A stretch of DNA of 64,000 nt, from contig JANYGI010000023.1 in assembly GCA_025362495.1 (NCBI GenBank), forward strand, positions 1 to 64,000, read 5' to 3'. Both the position numbers and the translations under genes were made by a program. Shown here piece by piece: positions 21,363 through 31,089 of this stretch. This stretch comes from Byssovorax sp. GTDB lineage: Bacteria; Myxococcota_A; Polyangia; Polyangiales; Polyangiaceae. Below the pieces are notes generated by a model. That model ran no database searches, was not told where the DNA came from, and saw nothing but the letters and a program-made list of their open reading frames with translations. How positions within the stretch are numbered: position 1 is the stretch's first letter; every line of letters begins with the position of its first letter.

Positions 21363-22700
21363 TCACGGCGACCTCGGCCGATAGCACACCTGCATCCACG
21401 GGCGCTCGCCGGTGCGGCCGATCTCGCTGCTCAGGAGCTGGGTTTGCGCGCGCTCGCGCTCGCTCAGCAGAATGCCATGGTCAGGAAACTTGCCAGCGTA
21501 CCAATCCTCGACGAGCCCGGTGACGTCGAACCAGATCTGATCGGAGCTGAGCACGATGGCTGTGGCGCTGCCGGACGACGCGATCACGACGGGATCGAAG
21601 CTGTTGTCGCCGAACGAGGCCCAGGTCTCGCTCGCCTCGTCCCAGTCCTTCGTCACCCGGTGGACCTCGATGGTCCCGGGGCCGGTCCGGCTCTCGTCGT
21701 GGAGGCCGACTCGCGCGGTGAGCACCGTCGCGCCGGCGGGGAGCCCCGAGAGATCGAAGCGCAGGAGAGCGCGGCGGATCGCGTCGGTGCCCGGCGGTGT
21801 CCCCACGAGCAGATCGACGCTGGCGCCGTGGGCGCGATCGGGCTCGTCGCTGGCGAGGTAGGTGTCGCGCGCTGAGCCTGGATTCAGGCCCTGTCGCTGG
21901 ATGAACCGGCTTTGCAGCGTGCTCTTCTCGCCCGCCAAGACCTTGTCGAGGAACTCGTCGCGAACACCGGGGGACGCCACCCGACCGTGCACACCGACGA
22001 CGTTGCAAAGGGATGTAGGAGCGACGAAGGACGCGACGCCGACCACGACCTCCACGCCTTGCCTGATCACCAGCGCTGGACCGCCGCTGTCGCCGAAGCA
22101 GATGCCGCCGAGCCCGCTGGTCTGATCGGCGGCGATCGTCAGCGGCGCGAGCTCGAGGAGGCGAGCCGCGACCCTCCTTCGAATGGTGTTGAGCGCAGGA
22201 GTGCTCCCGTACCCGACGAGCGTCATCGGGTCTCCGACCGCGAGCTGATCCGGCGCCGAGGCGAGCGGGATCGGCGTCACGTTGAACGCCCCTCCGTCTT
22301 CGACCGCGACGACACAGAAGTCGTAGTCGTCGCTGAACGAGTTGTAGCAGGGGTGGCGCACCGCCGAGGCGACCGGGAACATGAGCGAGGGCTCGGTGTA
22401 GTCCGCGCCGATCCGCACCGTGAGGGCAGGATGGCCCTCGGGGCAGCAGTGCGCGGCGGTGAGCGCGTAGAAGGTGTTGCCGTCAGCGCTCCTGCGGACG
22501 ACGGTCCCGCTGCACATGCTGCCTCGGTCGCTCACGATCGCGATGACGGCATCATGGGTGGAGTCGGCGCGCGCGGCGGCGCCGAGGATCGAGGCCCGAG
22601 CCACCCCACGGCCCTGGCCCGGGGCGCCCCCGCCCGGCGGAGAGCACGATAGCCCGAGAGCGATGGTAACAAGCGCGGTCAGCGCCCTCGATCGCATCAT
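21363..22700 (-). CDS. secreted trypsin-like lipoprotein protease with DNRLRE-type domain
   Basis: 445 residues. ATG 22700 (followed by a second ATG) has a strong ribosome-binding site AAAGGGGG and starts a lipoprotein signal (ALTALVTIALGLSCS). The S1 peptidase triad is complete: YALTAAHCC (His), DYDFCVVAV (Asp), CFGDSGGPALV (Ser). Residues about 295-445 form a DNRLRE/CBM96-like beta domain: DTYLASDEPDRAHGASVDLL, then RRALLRFDLSGLPAGATVL and WFDVTGLVEDWYAGK, a module that usually binds carbohydrate or cell surface. The protein should sit on the outer surface or be released and digest prey or environmental protein. Divergent from the SUFU gene, with about 207 bases between starts. Confidence 0.88.
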   Translation of the reverse strand: MMRSRALTALVTIALGLSCSPPGGGAPGQGRGVARASILGAAARADSTHDAVIAIVSDRGSMCSGTVVRRSADGNTFYALTAAHCCPEGHPALTVRIGADYTEPSLMFPVASAVRHPCYNSFSDDYDFCVVAVEDGGAFNVTPIPLASAPDQLAVGDPMTLVGYGSTPALNTIRRRVAARLLELAPLTIAADQTSGLGGICFGDSGGPALVIRQGVEVVVGVASFVAPTSLCNVVGVHGRVASPGVRDEFLDKVLAGEKSTLQSRFIQRQGLNPGSARDTYLASDEPDRAHGASVDLLVGTPPGTDAIRRALLRFDLSGLPAGATVLTARVGLHDESRTGPGTIEVHRVTKDWDEASETWASFGDNSFDPVVIASSGSATAIVLSSDQIWFDVTGLVEDWYAGKFPDHGILLSERERAQTQLLSSEIGRTGERPWMQVCYRPRSP

Positions 22701-22907
22701 TTGACCCCCTTTCACAACATAACGACCTCGGGCGGGATCCGGAAGGCACCCCGAACAGAGTCGAATTGCCATCCAGGGATGGAGTGCGGAAGAAATGGAT
22801 TCTCGGGGGACACCCCTCTTGCAGAGCAGGAGCGGATTCGCCCCGAGCAGGATTGTCGCGCGCGCCGCGCGTCATGACAGCGAGCGCGTTGATGCGGCGC
22901 GGCGGCC

Positions 22908-23969
22908 GTGATACCGGCAGTGGTGGCCACGACAAAGCAAGAATTCGAGCTCACGGACCCACGCAGCGTCGACTCTTCCGCGGTCGACGCGCTCGACACC
23001 GCGCTCGCCGCGGCGTGCGGCGCGCAGAAGGCGAGCGTGCTCCACGCCATCGATCCGCGGCGTATCCTCTCCTTCGAGGCGGGCGGCCCGGCCGTGTGGA
23101 GCGTGGCAATCGCCACGGGCTCCGCGCCGACTCCCTATCACCTCTACGTCACGTATGGCCTCTCCGGCAGCATCGATCCGCGCCGCCACGAGCAGGGCCT
23201 CGAGCACGAGCTGTCGATCCGGATCCCCGCCACGAGCGAGGGGCCGCCGATGTGGCCAACGCTGCTCCTGCGCCACCTCGGGCGCTACGTGCTGACGGCG
23301 CGGCGCGAGCTCCGCGTCGGCGAGGTGATGCCGCTCTTTGCCCCGCTCAGCCGCGCTGCCCTGCAGCCCGAGCACCACGCGGCGCAGCCCGACTCGCGAC
23401 TCCAGGCCATCCTCGTCGGCGGGGACTCGCAGCTTCGCGGCGTGGCGACTCACAAAGGCCCGATCGAGGTCCGGCGGATCTACGGTATCGACGAGGCGGA
23501 GCGACGCCTGATAGAGCGCTGGTCGGTGGCGGGCTTCGGCGGCCAGATCGCGGGGCGCGATCCCACGTTGACGACCGATCTCGATCGCCCGAGCTGGGCC
23601 GACCAGGCCGCAATCGTCTCAGCCATTGACGAAGGCGCCGAGCGCGAGGGCAGCGCGACCACCGCAATGGCTCTCCCCGGGGTGCGCTGGGAGCGGAGCC
23701 GCGACGCCTGGACGATCCGCCTGCCCGGCGGCGACGCGGCCCGCCACCTCGCCGCGGTGCTCGAAGGACGCCTCCCGCACGGCCGCCACCTCCTCGTCCA
23801 CGACGTCGAGCCGAAGCCGCAAACGCAGGTGGCCCTGGTCCCCGCAGAGGCGCTCTCGATCCACGAGGAGCGCGGCGTGCTCGTGCTCGGAATGCCGGCC
23901 GACAGCTTCTACCTGACGATGCTCGCGCGCGGCGAGAAGAGCTACGAGTGGGTGTTCAGCGACGAGTGA
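22908..23969 (+). CDS. SUFU (suppressor-of-fused) domain protein
   Basis: 353 residues. Residues about 60-150 match the SUFU fold: PYHLYVTYGLSGSID, then EHELSIRIPATSEGPPMWP and LLRHLGRYVL. Bacterial SUFU proteins often act as immunity proteins against polymorphic toxins or as stress proteins. The C-terminal 150 residues carry a beta-rich, unassigned domain ending in SFYLTMLARGEKSYEWVF. The start GTG 22908 is uncertain; GTGs a few codons downstream are alternatives. No toxin gene is adjacent, so this would be an orphan immunity-like protein; a role in the envelope stress logic of the neighbouring ECF operon is only a guess. Confidence 0.75.
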   Translation: MIPAVVATTKQEFELTDPRSVDSSAVDALDTALAAACGAQKASVLHAIDPRRILSFEAGGPAVWSVAIATGSAPTPYHLYVTYGLSGSIDPRRHEQGLEHELSIRIPATSEGPPMWPTLLLRHLGRYVLTARRELRVGEVMPLFAPLSRAALQPEHHAAQPDSRLQAILVGGDSQLRGVATHKGPIEVRRIYGIDEAERRLIERWSVAGFGGQIAGRDPTLTTDLDRPSWADQAAIVSAIDEGAEREGSATTAMALPGVRWERSRDAWTIRLPGGDAARHLAAVLEGRLPHGRHLLVHDVEPKPQTQVALVPAEALSIHEERGVLVLGMPADSFYLTMLARGEKSYEWVFSDE

Positions 23970-24092: not shown

Positions 24093-24740
24093 ATGCCCGC
24101 AAGGATCCAAAGAGCCCTGAACGGGGAGAGAGACGCGGTCCGCGCGCTCGTGGACGAGCTCTCCCCCGTCATCCAGGCGCGCATCGTGCGATCGCTGACG
24201 CGACGGCAGGAGGCGGCGGGTGGGCGCGACGTGCGGCAGGAGGTCCGCGATCTGACCCAGCACATGTTCCTGGTGCTCTTCGCCGACGGCGGCCGCGTCC
24301 TGCGTCAGTGGGATCCGGAGCGCGGCAGCTCGCTGCAAAACTTCATCGGCCTCGTGACCGAGCGGGAGGTCGCGTCGATCCTGCGGCGGCGGCGGCGCAG
24401 CCCCTGGGGCGAGCACCCGACCGAGGACGAGGATTTCGATCGGATGAGCGGCGCCGCGCCAGGACCGGAGAGCGAGGCCATCTCCCGCGATCTGCTCCGC
24501 CGCGTGATCGTCCGCGCCCGCGCCCGGCTGAGCGGGCGAGGGATCGATCTCTTCCAGTGGATCGTCCTCGAGGAGCGCTCGGTCGAGGAGGTCTGCACCC
24601 TCGCCGGGATGACCCCGGAGGCGGTGTATGCGTGGCGCAGCCGCCTCGCGCGCCTCCTCCGCGAGGTTGCTGCCGAAGGCATGTCAGAAGGCGAGGGGAC
24701 GCGTCGAAGGCCTCCCGAGGATGGCGCGAATGACGGATGA
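24093..24740 (+). CDS. ECF-family RNA polymerase sigma factor
   Basis: 215 residues from ATG 24093. Region sigma2 is visible in the first half (RDLTQHMFLVLFADGGRVLRQWDPERGSSLQNFIGLVTEREVASILRRRRR, shown here only as landmarks DLTQHMFLVLF and WDPERGSSLQNFI), and sigma4 near the end (ERSVEEVCTLAGMTPEAVYAWRSRLARLLRE region: VEEVCTLAGMTPEAVYAW). The DNA-binding helix is present. It overlaps the following membrane-protein gene by 20 bases and is the first gene of a three-gene operon ending with a CHAT protease. The sigma factor should direct transcription of its own operon and perhaps envelope genes on release from its regulator. Confidence 0.88.
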   Translation: MPARIQRALNGERDAVRALVDELSPVIQARIVRSLTRRQEAAGGRDVRQEVRDLTQHMFLVLFADGGRVLRQWDPERGSSLQNFIGLVTEREVASILRRRRRSPWGEHPTEDEDFDRMSGAAPGPESEAISRDLLRRVIVRARARLSGRGIDLFQWIVLEERSVEEVCTLAGMTPEAVYAWRSRLARLLREVAAEGMSEGEGTRRRPPEDGANDG

Positions 24741-25560
24741 TGAGCTGCTCCAGGCCGCCGGCGAGGCGGCGCGCGAGGGCGATCCTCTCCAGGACGAGCG
24801 GTGGGACGCCCTGCCGAGCGGGGGCCTGAGCGAGGGCGATCTCGCGGCGCTCCGCCTCCTCGCCGATCAATCGGACAGCGCGCGAAGCGCGTTTGAAGCG
24901 CTTCAGCCGCTCGACGAAGCCGCGCGTGAGCAGATCGTGGACGGGATCCTGGCCGGGCTCGCCGCGGGCGCGCCGGCGGCTCCTCTGCCGGAGAAAACGC
25001 CCGGGGACGGCGCGCGGGTGATCGCGTTTCCACGACGAGCGCGCCGCGCGCTGGGAGCGCTCGCCGTGGCGGGATCGCTCGCCGCGGCCGCGGCGCTGCT
25101 GCTCTTCCTCCCGCGCGGCGTGTCGTCTCTCCCGGGCTACGAGGCGTCGCTCGTCGGCGAGCAGGCCCAGCGCTCGAGCGCGCCCGGCGCCGGCGTCCCG
25201 CAGCTCGGACCGGGCTCCCGGCTCGAGCTTGTGCTCCGCCCCGAGGTTGCCGTCGACGGGCCGGTCGCGGTGCGGAGCTTCCTTTCGTGCGGCGCAGAGG
25301 TTCGGTCCTGGGATGCGCCCGCCGTGATCGCCGACGGCGGATCGATCCGGGTCACCGGCGGCTACGACGCGCTGTTCGGTGATCTCCCGACGGGATCTTG
25401 CGAGCTAGTGTTCGCCGTCGGCCGGCCGTCGGCGCTCCCGTCGAGCCTGGAAGCGGTGACCGCTGCGCTGCGGGAACCGGTACGCTCTCGGACCGAAGCA
25501 TGGCACCTCGTGCGCGTCCCGATCCGGCTCGTCGATCGCGCTCGCCCTGGATCCCCTTGA
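24721..25560 (+). CDS. single-pass membrane protein in anti-sigma position
   Basis: 279 residues. The N-terminal 100 residues are cytoplasmic and helical (MTDDELLQAAGEAAREGD, LSEGDLAALRLLADQSD), one transmembrane segment follows (LGALAVAGSLAAAAALLLFL), then a periplasmic beta-rich domain (about 125-279) with a pair of Cys (FLSCGAEV, GSCELVF). This is the layout of an anti-sigma factor, although no ZAS zinc motif (HxxxCxxC) is seen, so the family differs from classical anti-sigma proteins. ATG 24721 follows a CCGAGG ribosome-binding site; a second ATG is 9 bases downstream. It overlaps sigma by 20 bases and the CHAT gene by 61 bases, so all three are co-expressed. Confidence 0.72.
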   Translation: MARMTDDELLQAAGEAAREGDPLQDERWDALPSGGLSEGDLAALRLLADQSDSARSAFEALQPLDEAAREQIVDGILAGLAAGAPAAPLPEKTPGDGARVIAFPRRARRALGALAVAGSLAAAAALLLFLPRGVSSLPGYEASLVGEQAQRSSAPGAGVPQLGPGSRLELVLRPEVAVDGPVAVRSFLSCGAEVRSWDAPAVIADGGSIRVTGGYDALFGDLPTGSCELVFAVGRPSALPSSLEAVTAALREPVRSRTEAWHLVRVPIRLVDRARPGSP

Positions 25561-28289
25561 TTTCTGCGCTCGCGGCGCTCGTACCGGCCTGCGGTCGGGG
25601 CGCTCCTCCCGCTGCGCCGCTGCCCCTCGAGGTGGAGATCGCCGGGTGCGCCTCGGTGCGCGCGGGGCCGATCTGCGTCACCGACGCAGCGACGTCGCTC
25701 GCTGTGTGGGTGAAGGCCAACAAGGGCGCGGCGATCAGCGTCCGCGTCGACGACCGGGGGATCGCCGCGGAGCGCGCGCCGATCGAAGATGGACTCCTGT
25801 TGAGGCTTCCCGCCGGGGCCGCCGCGACCGGCAGCGAGCTCGTGGTGCACGCAGCGCTCGGTGCGGACGAGGGATCGTTCCGGATCGCGCTCGCTCGGCC
25901 CGAGATCGATCCGGCGTTCGACGAGGCCGAAGCCCTGCGCCTCGGCCAGCACCTCGACGAGGCCGCGCTCCGCTTCACGGCGCTGGCGGGGAGCAGCGCG
26001 CCGAACCTGCGGGCCCGGGCAACGGGGAAGCTCGCGCGGATCGCGCTGGCGCAGGGTCGGATTGCGGACGCGGTGCGAATCTTCGGCGAGGCGATCGCCC
26101 TCGATGGCGCCACGGGGCGGGTCTCGGACGAGTTCCGCGATCGCTGCGCGCTCTCGTTCGCGCTCGTCGACGAGAGCCATCGCTTCGCCGAAGCGCGCGA
26201 CGCGCTCGCTCCGCTGGAGGCGCTCGGATCGGTCTATCCGGAAGGGCGGGCCTCGGCTGTGTACTACGCGGCGCTCGTCGCGTTCGAGGCGGGCGACTAC
26301 CGCGCGGCGGTGCGCCTGTTGCGCGAAGCCGAGGCCGGCACCCGGAGGCTCGGGCGCGACGAGCTGCGGATCGACGTCCTGGAAGTGGAGGCCAACGTGC
26401 TCCACGCGCTCGGCCGCCGCGCCGAGGCAGTGTCGTTGCAACGGCAGGCGCGCGACGCTCGCCCCGCGGACGGCCCCGCGTGCAGCCGCGCCGGGTCGAG
26501 CAACAACCTCGGGTGGCTGTTGCTCGACGCCGAGGTCCGCGCGGAGGGCGGCGAGCGCGCGCAGGATCCGATCCCGCTCTTCGAGGAGGCGCTCACGCTC
26601 CTTCGACGGGAGTGCGCGCACCCGCCGTTGCTCGCCAGCACGCTCACCAACCTCGCCCATGCGTACCTCGCTCGAGAAAATCCGGCGCGGAGCCGCGCCT
26701 ACCTCGACGAAGCGCGCGCCGCCCACCCCGAGGCGGACGTGGTGAGGCAAGCGGAGTGGCTCGAGATCGAGGGGAGGATCGCGCTCGGCGACGGCAAGAC
26801 CTCGCGCTCGCTCGAGCTCTACGATCAGCTCGCGACGCTCTCGGCGCGCACGCTGCTGCCGGACGCGCGCTGGCAAGCGGCGCTCGGGCGGGCGAGGGCG
26901 CTCGACACGCTCGGGCGCATCGAGCCGGCGCGCGCGGCGTATGCGGAGGCGGAGCGGCTCCTCGACGACGACGGCTTCCTCGTGCCGCTCGGCGAAGGCA
27001 AAGGCACGTTCCTCGGCAAGCGCGAGGAGAGCGCGCGGCGGCGCGTCGATTTCCTCTTTCGCCATGGCAGCCCCGAGGCCGCCGAGGCGGCGCGGCGATC
27101 GCGCGCGCGCGTGCTCGCGACGATCGAGTGGACCTCGCGCCTCGGCGCGCTCGATCCCGAGCGCCGCGCCCGCTGGCAGGCGTCGCTGGCGGCGTACCGG
27201 CGCGCGCGCGAAGCGATCGACGCCGAGGCCGCCGCGGACTGGAAGCTCTCGGCGACCCGACTCGCCGCGGTCCTCGCCGAGCGCGGGCGGGCCGAGGAGC
27301 GCCTTCGATCGATGCTCGATCAAGGCCTCGCGACGCTGCGACCCGCGCCCGTCAGCGAGGCGCCCGCCCCGCACGCCCTCCCCGTGCCGCGAGGCGGCGA
27401 AGTCTTCCTGGTTTACCACCCGTCGCCTTCTGGCTGGGTCGGCTTCGCGATCGCCGAGCGCGGCGTCGTGGCGCGGAGGATCCCGCCGCTCGACCCCGGC
27501 GCCTCGGACGCCGAGCTCTCGACGCTGCTCCTCGAGCCGTTCCGCGACTCCATCGCCTCCGCGACGCGCCTGCGCGTCCTGCCGTACGGCGCCCTCGAGC
27601 ACGTGGATTTTCACGCGCTGCCGTGGGATGGCGCGCCCCTCGTCGCGCGCTGCCCCGTGGTCTACGGTGTCGATTTGCCGGCGCGATCCGAGGCGCCTCG
27701 CGACGCCGGCGCCGAGCTCGCGCTGATCGTCGCCGATCCGCGCGGCAACCTGCCCGCCGCGCGCGACGAGGCCCGCGCGGTCGACGCCGCGCTCCGCGCC
27801 CACGGATCGCGCACGCAGCTCCTCACCGGCGACGAGGCCTCGCACCGCGCGGTCTGCGACGGGATCGAGGATCCGCAGACGGCGCAGCTCCACTACGCAG
27901 GCCACGGCGTCTTCGAGGGTCGCGACGGCTGGGAGAGCGGCCTGCCGCTGACCGCCGGCGGATGGCTCACGGTCGGCGACGTGCTCGCCCTGCGCCGCGC
28001 GCCCGCTCGCGTGCTCCTCTCCGGCTGCGAGACGGCGCGCACCGCCCCCGAATCTCGAGCAGCCAGCCTCGGCATCGCGCAGGCGTTCATCCTCGCCGGG
28101 GCGCGCGCCGTGGTGGCCGCGACTCGCCCCATCGACGACGCGCTCGCCGAGCGGCTGATGCGCGCCCTGTACGAGGCTCCCTCCGGCCCATCCATGGATC
28201 TCGGCGCCGCGCTGCGCGAAGCGCAGATCACCGTCCGCCGCGAGACCCCGGCCGCCGACTGGGCGAGCTTCCGCGTGCTCGTTCCGTAG
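25500..28289 (+). CDS. TPR-CHAT caspase-like protease with lipoprotein signal
   Basis: 929 residues from ATG 25500. The N-terminus (MAPRARPDPARRSRSPWIPL, then ISALAALVPAC) looks like a lipoprotein signal with Cys about 31. Residues about 45-130 form a beta domain, about 135-560 a TPR solenoid, and about 620-929 a CHAT domain with the caspase-type dyad His802 (LHYAGHGVFEG) and Cys843 (LLSGCETART). CHAT proteases cut partner proteins, usually with TPR domains as the sensor; most known ones are cytoplasmic. Here the signal would place the protease in the periplasm or outer membrane, in an operon with an ECF sigma factor and a membrane regulator. The predicted target is that regulator or an envelope protein; this is inference. 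Confidence 0.85.
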   Translation: MAPRARPDPARRSRSPWIPLISALAALVPACGRGAPPAAPLPLEVEIAGCASVRAGPICVTDAATSLAVWVKANKGAAISVRVDDRGIAAERAPIEDGLLLRLPAGAAATGSELVVHAALGADEGSFRIALARPEIDPAFDEAEALRLGQHLDEAALRFTALAGSSAPNLRARATGKLARIALAQGRIADAVRIFGEAIALDGATGRVSDEFRDRCALSFALVDESHRFAEARDALAPLEALGSVYPEGRASAVYYAALVAFEAGDYRAAVRLLREAEAGTRRLGRDELRIDVLEVEANVLHALGRRAEAVSLQRQARDARPADGPACSRAGSSNNLGWLLLDAEVRAEGGERAQDPIPLFEEALTLLRRECAHPPLLASTLTNLAHAYLARENPARSRAYLDEARAAHPEADVVRQAEWLEIEGRIALGDGKTSRSLELYDQLATLSARTLLPDARWQAALGRARALDTLGRIEPARAAYAEAERLLDDDGFLVPLGEGKGTFLGKREESARRRVDFLFRHGSPEAAEAARRSRARVLATIEWTSRLGALDPERRARWQASLAAYRRAREAIDAEAAADWKLSATRLAAVLAERGRAEERLRSMLDQGLATLRPAPVSEAPAPHALPVPRGGEVFLVYHPSPSGWVGFAIAERGVVARRIPPLDPGASDAELSTLLLEPFRDSIASATRLRVLPYGALEHVDFHALPWDGAPLVARCPVVYGVDLPARSEAPRDAGAELALIVADPRGNLPAARDEARAVDAALRAHGSRTQLLTGDEASHRAVCDGIEDPQTAQLHYAGHGVFEGRDGWESGLPLTAGGWLTVGDVLALRRAPARVLLSGCETARTAPESRAASLGIAQAFILAGARAVVAATRPIDDALAERLMRALYEAPSGPSMDLGAALREAQITVRRETPAADWASFRVLVP

Positions 28290-28401: not shown

Positions 28402-28854
28402 ATGAAGCGAGCAATCATGATCGGGCTCGGGTGCCTCCTCATCACGGGATGCGGTCCCGAGGGGGCGAACGAGATGGAGGACGAGGCGACTCCGCGCCTC
28501 TCGACCAGCGACGTGGACACGCCGGCGGAGCCCACCCTGGATAGCGGAGGCATCGAGCAGACGATCAAGCCATGCCCCGCCTGCACCGGCCAGTGGAACG
28601 CCCCGGAGGGCTTCCTCGACTACCGCATCCCCGAGGGCGTCGAGGTCACTTCGTCCGAGCTGACGCTCGTCCTCCGGTACGAGGATCTGCACACGCAAAC
28701 GTGCGTGTTCCAGGGCTTCTCGCGCAAGGACGAGGTGGCCGTCGACTGCGGGTCGACGGGCTCGCCGCTCTCCGCAGAGCTCGTGTTCCTCTCCGGCTCC
28801 ACGTGGATGAGCGTTTCGCTCATCGTCGTCGAGGCCGCTCCGTCGACCCACTGA
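28402..28854 (+). CDS. small secreted lipoprotein
   Basis: 150 residues with a lipobox (IGLGCLLITGCGPEG, Cys 16-17 region). An acidic Thr/Ser-rich linker leads to a beta-rich domain of about 100 residues with four Cys (PCPACTG near the start, TCVFQ, VDCGS), compatible with two disulfides. No family recognised. Gap of 112 bases after the CHAT gene; possibly a separate transcript. A strong stem-loop follows its stop codon. Confidence 0.72.
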   Translation: MKRAIMIGLGCLLITGCGPEGANEMEDEATPRLSTSDVDTPAEPTLDSGGIEQTIKPCPACTGQWNAPEGFLDYRIPEGVEVTSSELTLVLRYEDLHTQTCVFQGFSRKDEVAVDCGSTGSPLSAELVFLSGSTWMSVSLIVVEAAPSTH

Positions 28855-28887: not shown

Positions 28888-29037
28888 ATCAATCTTCAGA
28901 TACGTTGTCAGATCGTCGCGACCCGCGGCGAAGCCCTGAACGACGGTGAAGAACCCGCGCGAGAGCCGGCTCCGAGAGGGGCGCGGCCGGCGCGCGCCTG
29001 CCTGCATCTCGAATCTCTGTCCGATGGAGGAATGACC

Positions 29038-31089
29038 ATGATCCGTGCTTCGATCCACTCGAATGCTGTCCTCAGCGCAGCTCGACTCTCGCTCTTTGCC
29101 GCCGCTGGGTGCCTGTCAATCGCCGGTTGCGCCGACGAGAGCGTGCCTGTGGACGCGGAGCGCCCTCACCTCGCCGAGGCCGCGATCACGCCGCTCCCCC
29201 CCAGCACGAGCCTCGAGCTCGGCGTCATGACCGGAGGCTATTACAGCACCGGAACGGATCCTTACTTCCAGAAGGCCGAGCAGACGATGGGCGACTTCCG
29301 CGTGCTCGGCGCCAGGTGGATCCGCATGGAAGCGAACTTCGGCGGCAACACCTCGGACGAGGGGATGCGCCGCCTCGTCGAGAAGGCCCACCTCCGCGGC
29401 CTCAAGGTCGTGATGCTGCTTCAAGGACAGGCCTGCGTACCCCCGGTCGACACGAACCAGGGGCGCTGCCTGGGCAGCCCCTTCAGCGGCCGTGACGACG
29501 TGAACGCCGATATCGACGCGTTCACGGCAAGCTACATCAACGGCCCGAAGGGGCTCAATTACTACGCGACCCAGGTGTTCAACACCGACCTCAGCCGGCC
29601 CGACGCCTACGAGATCTTGAACGAGCCCAACATCTGCGTGGCCGGCAACCCCGTTTGCGACGCCTGGCAGGGCAGGCTCGGCATGCGCGTCGGCGGAAAC
29701 ACGGCGGCCTGGCTCCTCCGCCGCGTCAAGGAGTGGAAGGACCAGAACCAGCGCCCCGAGCTCATCATCAGCGGCGGCACGCTCAACACCTACACCTCGG
29801 AGACGGCTTACTGGGGCCGATTCTTCGGATCCGGCGCCTGGAACGCGGGGCCGCGTCCCTTCGATTACTTCGGAATCCACCCCTACGACTCGAACTGGCT
29901 CGGCGCGGATTCGGGTGGTTGCATCAACGGAGGCGGGAGCGGCTGCTTCGATCAGGTGATGAACGGGTCCTCCTGGGTCAACCACACCGCGAGCCTGATC
30001 TCCGGTCTGCGGCAGCAAATCCAGGCGCTCCCCGGCGTGGGATCGAGCTGGGGGTTCTTCGCCACCGAGTTCGGCTGGGCCGTCAACTATGGCAACTGCC
30101 CCGTACCCAACGCGACGGGCTGCGTGAAGAACGAAGCTCAGCAGGCCGAGGGGCTCGACGCGTCGGTCCGGGCGATGCAGCTGAGCGGCGTCGCCGCGTC
30201 GATGTACAACGAGTATCGCGACTTTCTCGGCGGGAACTATGGCCTGTACGGCTCGGATGGGTCGACCTGGCACACCAAGCCTTCGTACACGAAATTCCGC
30301 GAGCTCGCGGGCGCCAGCGGCCCGACCGACGCCTGGCCCACGCGTTACAGCGACTCGACCAGCCCCTTCGAGCCCTTCGTCGAGGCGCTCTCTTCCAGCG
30401 GCACCATCGAGGGCTGTGACCGCGTGAGCACTGGCAGCTTCCGCCCCCTCAGCTGCTTCGACCCGGCCGATCGCTTCAGCTTCGGGACGAACACCAGCGC
30501 CAAGCGCGGCACCGTCGCGGCCTGGGCTGTGAGGGGCGCCAATCTCGCCTTCGACGCCTCGGGCCCGGCTCACTTCAACGATGTTCCCCCGAATCACCCC
30601 TATTACCGCGAGATCGAGACCGCGTTTCGCCACGGCGTCCTCAGCGGCTATAGCTGCGGCGGCCCGGGGGAGCCCTGCCCCGGTGCGTACTTCCGGCCCA
30701 ACAACGACGTGACCCGGGCCCAGACCGCGAAGATCATCGCCAACGCCCACGGGTGGCCGCAGGTGCAGAATCCGACTCCGACCTTCAACGATGTGCCGTT
30801 CGGCAGCACGTTCTACGGCTACGTCGAGGCGTGCGCTCTGCGTGGGCTGATCTCCGGCTATAGCTGCGGTGGCGTCGGCGAGCCCTGCCCGGGCGCCTAC
30901 TTCCGGCCGGGCAACAGCGTGACGCGCGGGCAGCTCACCAAGTTCGTCTACTACGCCGCGACGACGATGCCCGAGGGGACGCCCGGCGATCCCTCGGTGT
31001 CCGACGGCTCGACGGGGCCTTGCAAGCCCGGTAAATGTCCGCCGGCCGACTGCGAGACGCTCGGCACCTGCGAAGCCGGGATGGACTGA
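29038..31089 (+). CDS. secreted glycoside hydrolase (TIM-barrel) with two SLH domains
   Basis: 683 residues. GGAGGA (29026-29031) sits 6 bases before ATG 29038, which favours this start over the ATG at 29032. The lipoprotein-like signal (AAAGCLSIAGC) leads to a glycoside hydrolase barrel (about 50-430): YEILNEPN gives the acid/base Glu196, FFATEFGW the nucleophile Glu344, typical of clan GH-A (families 5/39/53 type). Two SLH modules follow (HFNDVPPNHPYYREIETAF; TFNDVPFGSTFYGYVEACAL), each with the unusual insert YSCGGxGEPCPGAYFRP rich in Cys/Gly. The enzyme probably attacks polysaccharide outside the cell while attached to a surface polymer. SLH domains are unusual in a Gram-negative. Confidence 0.85.
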   Translation: MIRASIHSNAVLSAARLSLFAAAGCLSIAGCADESVPVDAERPHLAEAAITPLPPSTSLELGVMTGGYYSTGTDPYFQKAEQTMGDFRVLGARWIRMEANFGGNTSDEGMRRLVEKAHLRGLKVVMLLQGQACVPPVDTNQGRCLGSPFSGRDDVNADIDAFTASYINGPKGLNYYATQVFNTDLSRPDAYEILNEPNICVAGNPVCDAWQGRLGMRVGGNTAAWLLRRVKEWKDQNQRPELIISGGTLNTYTSETAYWGRFFGSGAWNAGPRPFDYFGIHPYDSNWLGADSGGCINGGGSGCFDQVMNGSSWVNHTASLISGLRQQIQALPGVGSSWGFFATEFGWAVNYGNCPVPNATGCVKNEAQQAEGLDASVRAMQLSGVAASMYNEYRDFLGGNYGLYGSDGSTWHTKPSYTKFRELAGASGPTDAWPTRYSDSTSPFEPFVEALSSSGTIEGCDRVSTGSFRPLSCFDPADRFSFGTNTSAKRGTVAAWAVRGANLAFDASGPAHFNDVPPNHPYYREIETAFRHGVLSGYSCGGPGEPCPGAYFRPNNDVTRAQTAKIIANAHGWPQVQNPTPTFNDVPFGSTFYGYVEACALRGLISGYSCGGVGEPCPGAYFRPGNSVTRGQLTKFVYYAATTMPEGTPGDPSVSDGSTGPCKPGKCPPADCETLGTCEAGMD

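Follow-up and report, generated by a model that had tools for sequence, protein, structure and literature searches.

What is known of CHAT proteases concerns mainly enzymes that act in the cytoplasm as executors, in gasdermin cleavage and in Craspase. Membrane anti-sigma factors of the RseA/DegS/RseP and RsiW types have their outer domain cut first, with intramembrane proteolysis after.

In Craspase (type III-E CRISPR; Csx29/Csx30/CASP-sigma), the TPR-CHAT protein Csx29 cuts the sigma inhibitor Csx30, a cleavage that PMC10028731 presents as demonstrated. ECF54, a sigma group of Actinobacteria, has conserved neighbours that encode CHAT, subtilase, and carboxypeptidase proteins; PMC8999054 (citing Huang 2015 and Casas-Pastor 2021) reports no anti-sigma factor for it and records that proteolytic control has been proposed. 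Regulated proteolysis of membrane anti-sigma factors of the RseA/DegS/RseP type is cited in PMC10028731.

The window (the whole 64,000-nt stretch of DNA analysed) contained a three-gene unit at positions 24093-28289, + strand. Its products are an ECF-like sigma factor, a membrane protein with a single transmembrane pass, and a TPR-CHAT protein that starts with a lipoprotein signal. Its features, together with one downstream gene, were as follows:

24093-24740, + strand: ECF-like sigma-70 family sigma factor, 215 aa (ORF with ATG 24093 and stop 24740; TIGR02937 6.2e-9, below cut-off)
24721-25560, + strand: single-pass membrane regulator in anti-sigma position, 279 aa (adjoining sigma in 84 loci)
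25033-25107, + strand: transmembrane helix of this regulator, residues ~105-129 (hydropathy; AlphaFold helix 102-126 in numbering from 24730)
25138-25530, + strand: immunoglobulin-like beta domain of this regulator, extracytoplasmic (AlphaFold pLDDT about 80)
25171-25173, + strand: Arg151 codon; Arg-[Gly/Ser/Ala] is a candidate site of cleavage (83/83 sigma-linked homologues have the Arg)
25500-28289, + strand: TPR-CHAT protease-like lipoprotein, 929 aa (ATG 25500, stop 28289)
25500-25592, + strand: lipoprotein-type export signal ending at Cys31 (from sequence; equivalents in 46/64 homologues)
25626-25889, + strand: N-terminal beta domain with conserved Cys50/Cys59 pair
25911-27338, + strand: TPR helical solenoid (Pfam TPR E=1.1e-11)
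27513-28280, + strand: CHAT domain with His802 (27903-27905) and Cys843 (28026-28028) (Pfam PF12770)
28402-28854, + strand: small lipoprotein with PCPAC motif, just downstream of CHAT (CxxC-domain profile 11.8 bits)

This unit belongs to a sigma module whose conservation extends across Myxococcota, and in which, with a probability of about 0.5, the exported CHAT protein cuts the membrane regulator and thereby frees the sigma factor. The steps would be: (i) sigma is held by, or signals through, the single-pass membrane protein, which has a helical cytoplasmic part, a transmembrane helix, and an outer Ig-like domain; (ii) the TPR-CHAT protein, a lipoprotein in most relatives, is exported and would thus stand on the same side of the membrane as the Ig-like domain; (iii) its TPR/N-terminal part senses an envelope cue; (iv) active CHAT, on the outer face of the membrane or within the receptor, cuts the membrane regulator at Arg151; and (v) further intramembrane and cytoplasmic proteolysis of the regulator frees sigma. 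The sequences show the gene order, the export signals, the topology through natural fusions, the intact catalytic residues, the co-occurrence, the covariation, and the invariant Arg-[G/S/A]. We infer that the membrane protein inhibits sigma and that CHAT is the cutter, as well as where it cuts, the steps that follow, and the signal. A protease-switch sigma circuit, as the initial annotation had proposed, is plausible and partly supported by these sequences.

The module and the described systems shared some elements and differed in others. Craspase likewise has an ECF sigma factor, a regulator, and a TPR-CHAT protease in one locus, but it is cytoplasmic and RNA-activated with Cas7-11, and the available sections of PMC10028731 and PMC9729208 report no transmembrane regulator or lipoprotein signal; the window-family CHAT profile found no Csx29 chain in the PDB, the membrane-protein profile found no Csx30 chain, and PADLOC gave no type III-E match. 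ECF54, as described in PMC8999054, also has CHAT and subtilase genes near an ECF sigma factor (the subtilase in many Myxococcota modules, not in the window), but it belongs to another phylum, and the Myxococcota module has a constant membrane regulator with CHAT exported or fused to that regulator; the ECF54 pattern of no anti-sigma factor with CHAT and subtilase neighbours was therefore not that of this locus, where the membrane regulator was constant and the window was without a subtilase. The RseA/DegS/RseP and RsiW types resemble the module in having a single-pass membrane regulator whose outer domain is cut first, followed by intramembrane proteolysis (as proposed for the module), but the outer protease of the module would be of caspase (CHAT) type and the cytoplasmic domain of its regulator is unrecognised. 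In bacterial gasdermin systems, a neighbouring caspase-like protease similarly cuts its partner in a loop, with Gly at P1', but substrate, location, and outcome differ from those proposed here (PMC9079055).

Given the Craspase and ECF54 precedents, the module is to be regarded as a variant of protease-controlled sigma signalling rather than as a category of its own; that CHAT, subtilase, and ECF factors go together has already been noticed in another phylum (ECF54, PMC8999054). The literature search returned, besides Craspase and ECF54, nothing joining CHAT with ECF factors, lipoproteins, or myxobacteria; most likely, the exported caspase-like protease activates the sigma factor by cutting the membrane protein outside the membrane, which would be an undescribed envelope-signal relay. 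An exported caspase-type protease coupled, even fused, to a membrane sigma regulator phylum-wide would extend caspase-fold signalling to the bacterial envelope, and would show that the principle of Craspase, in which sigma is released once CHAT has cut its inhibitor, exists outside CRISPR.

Gene order and sigma factor

The sigma gene and the membrane-protein gene overlapped by 20 bases, and the membrane-protein gene and the CHAT gene by 61 bases; these overlaps and the gene coordinates had been given correctly, to the base, in the initial annotation. An alternative ATG at 24730 would make the membrane regulator 3 aa shorter. Only three CHAT genes were present in the 10.8-Mb window genome, and since the sigma/membrane protein/CHAT arrangement also recurred across the phylum, it exceeded what chance would give; the same phylum-wide conservation ruled out the window as an isolated chimera. 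No shared ECF promoter was seen by eye upstream of sigma, and a consensus scan there was empty.

The window sigma factor scored 36 bits (6.2e-9) against TIGR02937, below the cut-off of 42.9, and 23 of its 24 relatives matched this model; the profile of the sigma family retrieved a solved ECF sigma factor from the PDB (9isn, E=2e-11). The ECF factor claimed upstream of the membrane protein was thus a diverged one, its sigma2/sigma4 assignment coming through the family members and 9isn, with the window copy itself sub-threshold. Beside a sister sigma factor in L100, a FecR single-pass protein occupied the operon position of the membrane regulator, which supports the anti-sigma position assigned to the latter; the module differs from FecR-type ECF regulators in that its membrane-regulator family has no FecR domain.

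Around the unit, the window encoded (i) a C-terminally extended, exported serine protease of trypsin-like type (TAAHC...GDSGGP), assigned by eye, at 21363-22772 (- strand) upstream; (ii) a SUFU-domain protein (PF05076, 3.8e-15) at 22908-23969, directly upstream of sigma and not among the recurring neighbours of the module; and (iii) a large exported protein at 29032-31089, downstream of the module, with two SLH domains and an N-terminal part that by eye was glycoside-hydrolase-like. A defence-system reading was rejected, PADLOC showing only a weak BovA match.

Linkage and location of the CHAT protein

Each of the three proteins was searched against relatives in the same family (108 genomes), and the order and the phylum were then searched with the membrane-protein profile; a related-locus search with a single protein gave two loci. 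A strong sigma relative was found in 32/108 family genomes and a strong CHAT relative in 27/108, all 27 lying within the 32. The resulting 84 sigma/membrane-protein loci of Myxococcota were selected for resemblance to one of these two proteins and without regard to CHAT, so that CHAT linkage was not built in by the sampling. CHAT lay within 3.5 kb in 68 of the 84, a count of loci that are not independent events since the sampled genomes are related. Of these 68 CHAT genes, 36 followed downstream in the same direction, 8 lay upstream, 18 were encoded on the other strand, and 6 were fused. The remaining 16 loci had no adjoining CHAT; all 16 were in genomes with a CHAT of the same family elsewhere, and several were on short contigs. 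The three-gene order proposed in the initial annotation was accordingly found elsewhere, and homologues of the membrane protein did not consistently occur without a CHAT partner. Pairwise-distance correlation, used descriptively, was 0.80 between membrane protein and CHAT and 0.66-0.68 between sigma and either of them; for 28 paralogue pairs inside single genomes, the corresponding descriptive values were 0.69 and 0.35-0.41.

The CHAT protein matched Pfam CHAT PF12770 with E=1.2e-37 over residues 672-927 (130 bits vs. a cut-off of 24). The His802/Cys843 dyad after a TPR solenoid had been read from the sequence alone, and this reading agreed with the PF12770 and TPR matches; the codons were in place, and the dyad was intact in 69/69 homologues covering both positions. 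The N-terminus (MAPRARPDPARRSRSPWIPLISALAALVPAC) had a basic start, a hydrophobic core, and Cys31 in a lipobox-like setting with an atypical Pro at -2, in keeping with the hydrophobic signal and Cys noted earlier and not with a cytoplasmic segment. By a pattern and hydropathy rule, a lipobox-like signal was found in 46/64 CHAT homologues (those whose N-terminus was counted by profile coverage, two of which are fused and another truncated by a contig edge) vs. 2/191 interior control segments, and most homologues without it had another hydrophobic start. The cysteine pair of the N-terminal domain was conserved in about 61/63, as would be expected if this domain is exported.

In L112-L116 and L118, the membrane protein was joined to CHAT in one polypeptide, whose single clear transmembrane helix followed basic residues and separated the cytoplasmic part from the remainder; in L113 and L118, the CHAT N-terminal domain directly followed the membrane protein, with no signal in between. 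Being fused behind the only transmembrane helix of the membrane protein, CHAT would be placed outside the cytoplasm. This predicted location, the envelope location of the initial annotation, is well supported by the agreement of export signals, natural fusions, and the N-terminal Cys pair. Likewise well supported is a functional tie of CHAT to the sigma/membrane-protein pair, to which fusion, 68/84 linkage, 16/16 co-occurrence in trans, and covariation all point. Taken jointly, the outer location and this coupling appear highly probable. A further membrane protein/CHAT fusion, in L163 (6169-8997, - strand), had neither a neighbouring sigma nor the invariant Arg.

CHAT, with the subtilase where present, might instead be output of the sigma regulon, that is, envelope or surface proteases made on demand, with the membrane protein sensing otherwise and CHAT cutting exported or foreign proteins. 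The 18 opposite-strand and 8 upstream CHAT genes are placed as a regulon target would be, and exported subtilases stand beside many modules; the fusions in the six sigma-linked loci and in L163 however make CHAT part of the receptor, and the covariation of CHAT is stronger with the membrane protein than with sigma, so that this alternative is rather unlikely. A CHAT protein that does not cut, binding the Ig-like domain as a co-receptor and signalling by contact, with the Arg as a structural or docking residue, would also satisfy fusion and covariation, for which contact alone suffices, and would suit the retention of the Arg where CHAT is not adjacent; the His/Cys dyad kept in every homologue speaks against it, and it is the least probable of the alternatives. 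That CHAT is the enzyme that cuts the membrane regulator is, by comparison, given even odds. The AlphaFold model of the CHAT protein, built from a two-row alignment, had pLDDT < 50 in the catalytic part and was for that reason unused for the mechanism, and sequence comparison found no close PDB relative of the protein.

Membrane regulator and candidate cut site

The membrane regulator had one hydrophobic helix with RRARR before it, which by the positive-inside rule places its N-terminus inside. AlphaFold and sequence agreed on a single transmembrane segment between a cytoplasmic domain and an outer domain, as in membrane anti-sigma factors; together with its place beside sigma in the 84 loci and the FecR protein of L100, this bore out the earlier description of a single-pass membrane protein in anti-sigma position. 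The cytoplasmic part was modelled by AlphaFold with low confidence. The window membrane protein had no Pfam or NCBIfam match, no close PDB relative by sequence comparison, and, among 31 family members, no Pfam match to a recognised anti-sigma domain (zf-HC2/ZAS, FecR, RseA); a zf-HC2-like domain, suspected from a pattern in the cytoplasmic part, was not confirmed. In structural comparison the outer domain resembled Ig-like sandwiches, with Z reaching 9.2, and no specific family; as the matches spanned many unrelated Ig sandwiches, it was dropped as a clue to function.

Arg151 lay just outside the membrane and preceded, in the AlphaFold model, a loop with pLDDT < 50. Its flanks were variable, but its distance from a near-invariant Tyr, with which the outer domain begins, was fixed at 11-13 residues. 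The next position was Gly, Ser, or Ala in 80/83 sigma-linked membrane proteins, and in these 83 proteins only one glycine elsewhere was as constant as Arg151; no acidic residue was comparably conserved, which disfavours an internal salt bridge. The Arg was kept in the 16 loci without adjacent CHAT, so that it could be structural or the cut site of another enzyme. It was also kept in 13/19 further homologues, which lacked a detected sigma, lay at contig edges, or were second copies. The invariant Arg-[Gly/Ser/Ala] in a juxtamembrane loop looks like a protease site, and it fits a protease cutting the membrane regulator. Speaking against Arg151 as a CHAT site, Runella gasdermin is cut by CHAT after Leu (L247), not Arg (PMC9079055), and PMC9729208 likewise places the CHAT cut of Csx30 after Leu (L407), not Arg. 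Membrane-protein homologues without adjoining sigma or CHAT were also seen (L121, L122, L164-L167), two of these six having lost the Arg (L164, L167).

Subtilases and CxxC proteins beside the module

An exported subtilisin-domain protein stood beside the module in many relatives (PF00082 above cut-off in 4/4 examined). A subtilase of this family lay within the fetched stretch in 34/84 loci, including all six fused sigma-linked ones; its Asp/His/Ser triad was intact in 40/40, at the same residues as in the alignment of the first 19. This subtilase was absent from the window, and one search without a positive control found no match to it in the window genome.

The subtilase near many modules could be the site-1 protease and make the cut instead of CHAT. 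Neither this enzyme nor the invariant Arg figured in the initial annotation. A two-protease cascade, in which CHAT activates the exported subtilase or vice versa and the subtilase cuts after the invariant Arg, would draw on the triad-intact enzymes beside many modules and on the ECF54 neighbourhoods, which in PMC8999054 likewise combine CHAT with subtilase. No subtilase match was found in the window genome, however, and none nearby in 50/84 loci, with Arg151 kept regardless; such a cascade seems distinctly improbable, more so than regulon output. Returning to cleavage by CHAT itself, a broader proposal is an envelope caspase/subtilase relay, with a dedicated extracytoplasmic CHAT protein, lipoprotein or receptor-built, as the first-cut enzyme of sigma signalling, cutting at the invariant Arg-[G/S/A] and often in series with a subtilase; it is offered tentatively, at somewhat under even odds.

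The C-terminal domain of the subtilase carried a PQP...CxxC motif and also occurred stand-alone, as small exported proteins in other loci. Subtilases with this domain, usually downstream of CHAT, were found in L071-L075, L104, L106, L112-L116, L118, and L151, and also in L154, L155, L158, L161, L163, and others. Against the CxxC-domain profile, the small lipoprotein at 28402-28854 had a score reached by 0/2000 full shuffles and 11/2000 motif-fixed shuffles, and it may, tentatively, represent this C-terminal subtilase domain on its own. In L065-L068 and L070, the place of the subtilase downstream of CHAT was taken by small exported proteins, one or two in number, that carried a CGAC motif, and in L112-L116 a conserved exported protein of ~970 aa (FADVVLEPN...) lay between the fused CHAT gene and the subtilase.
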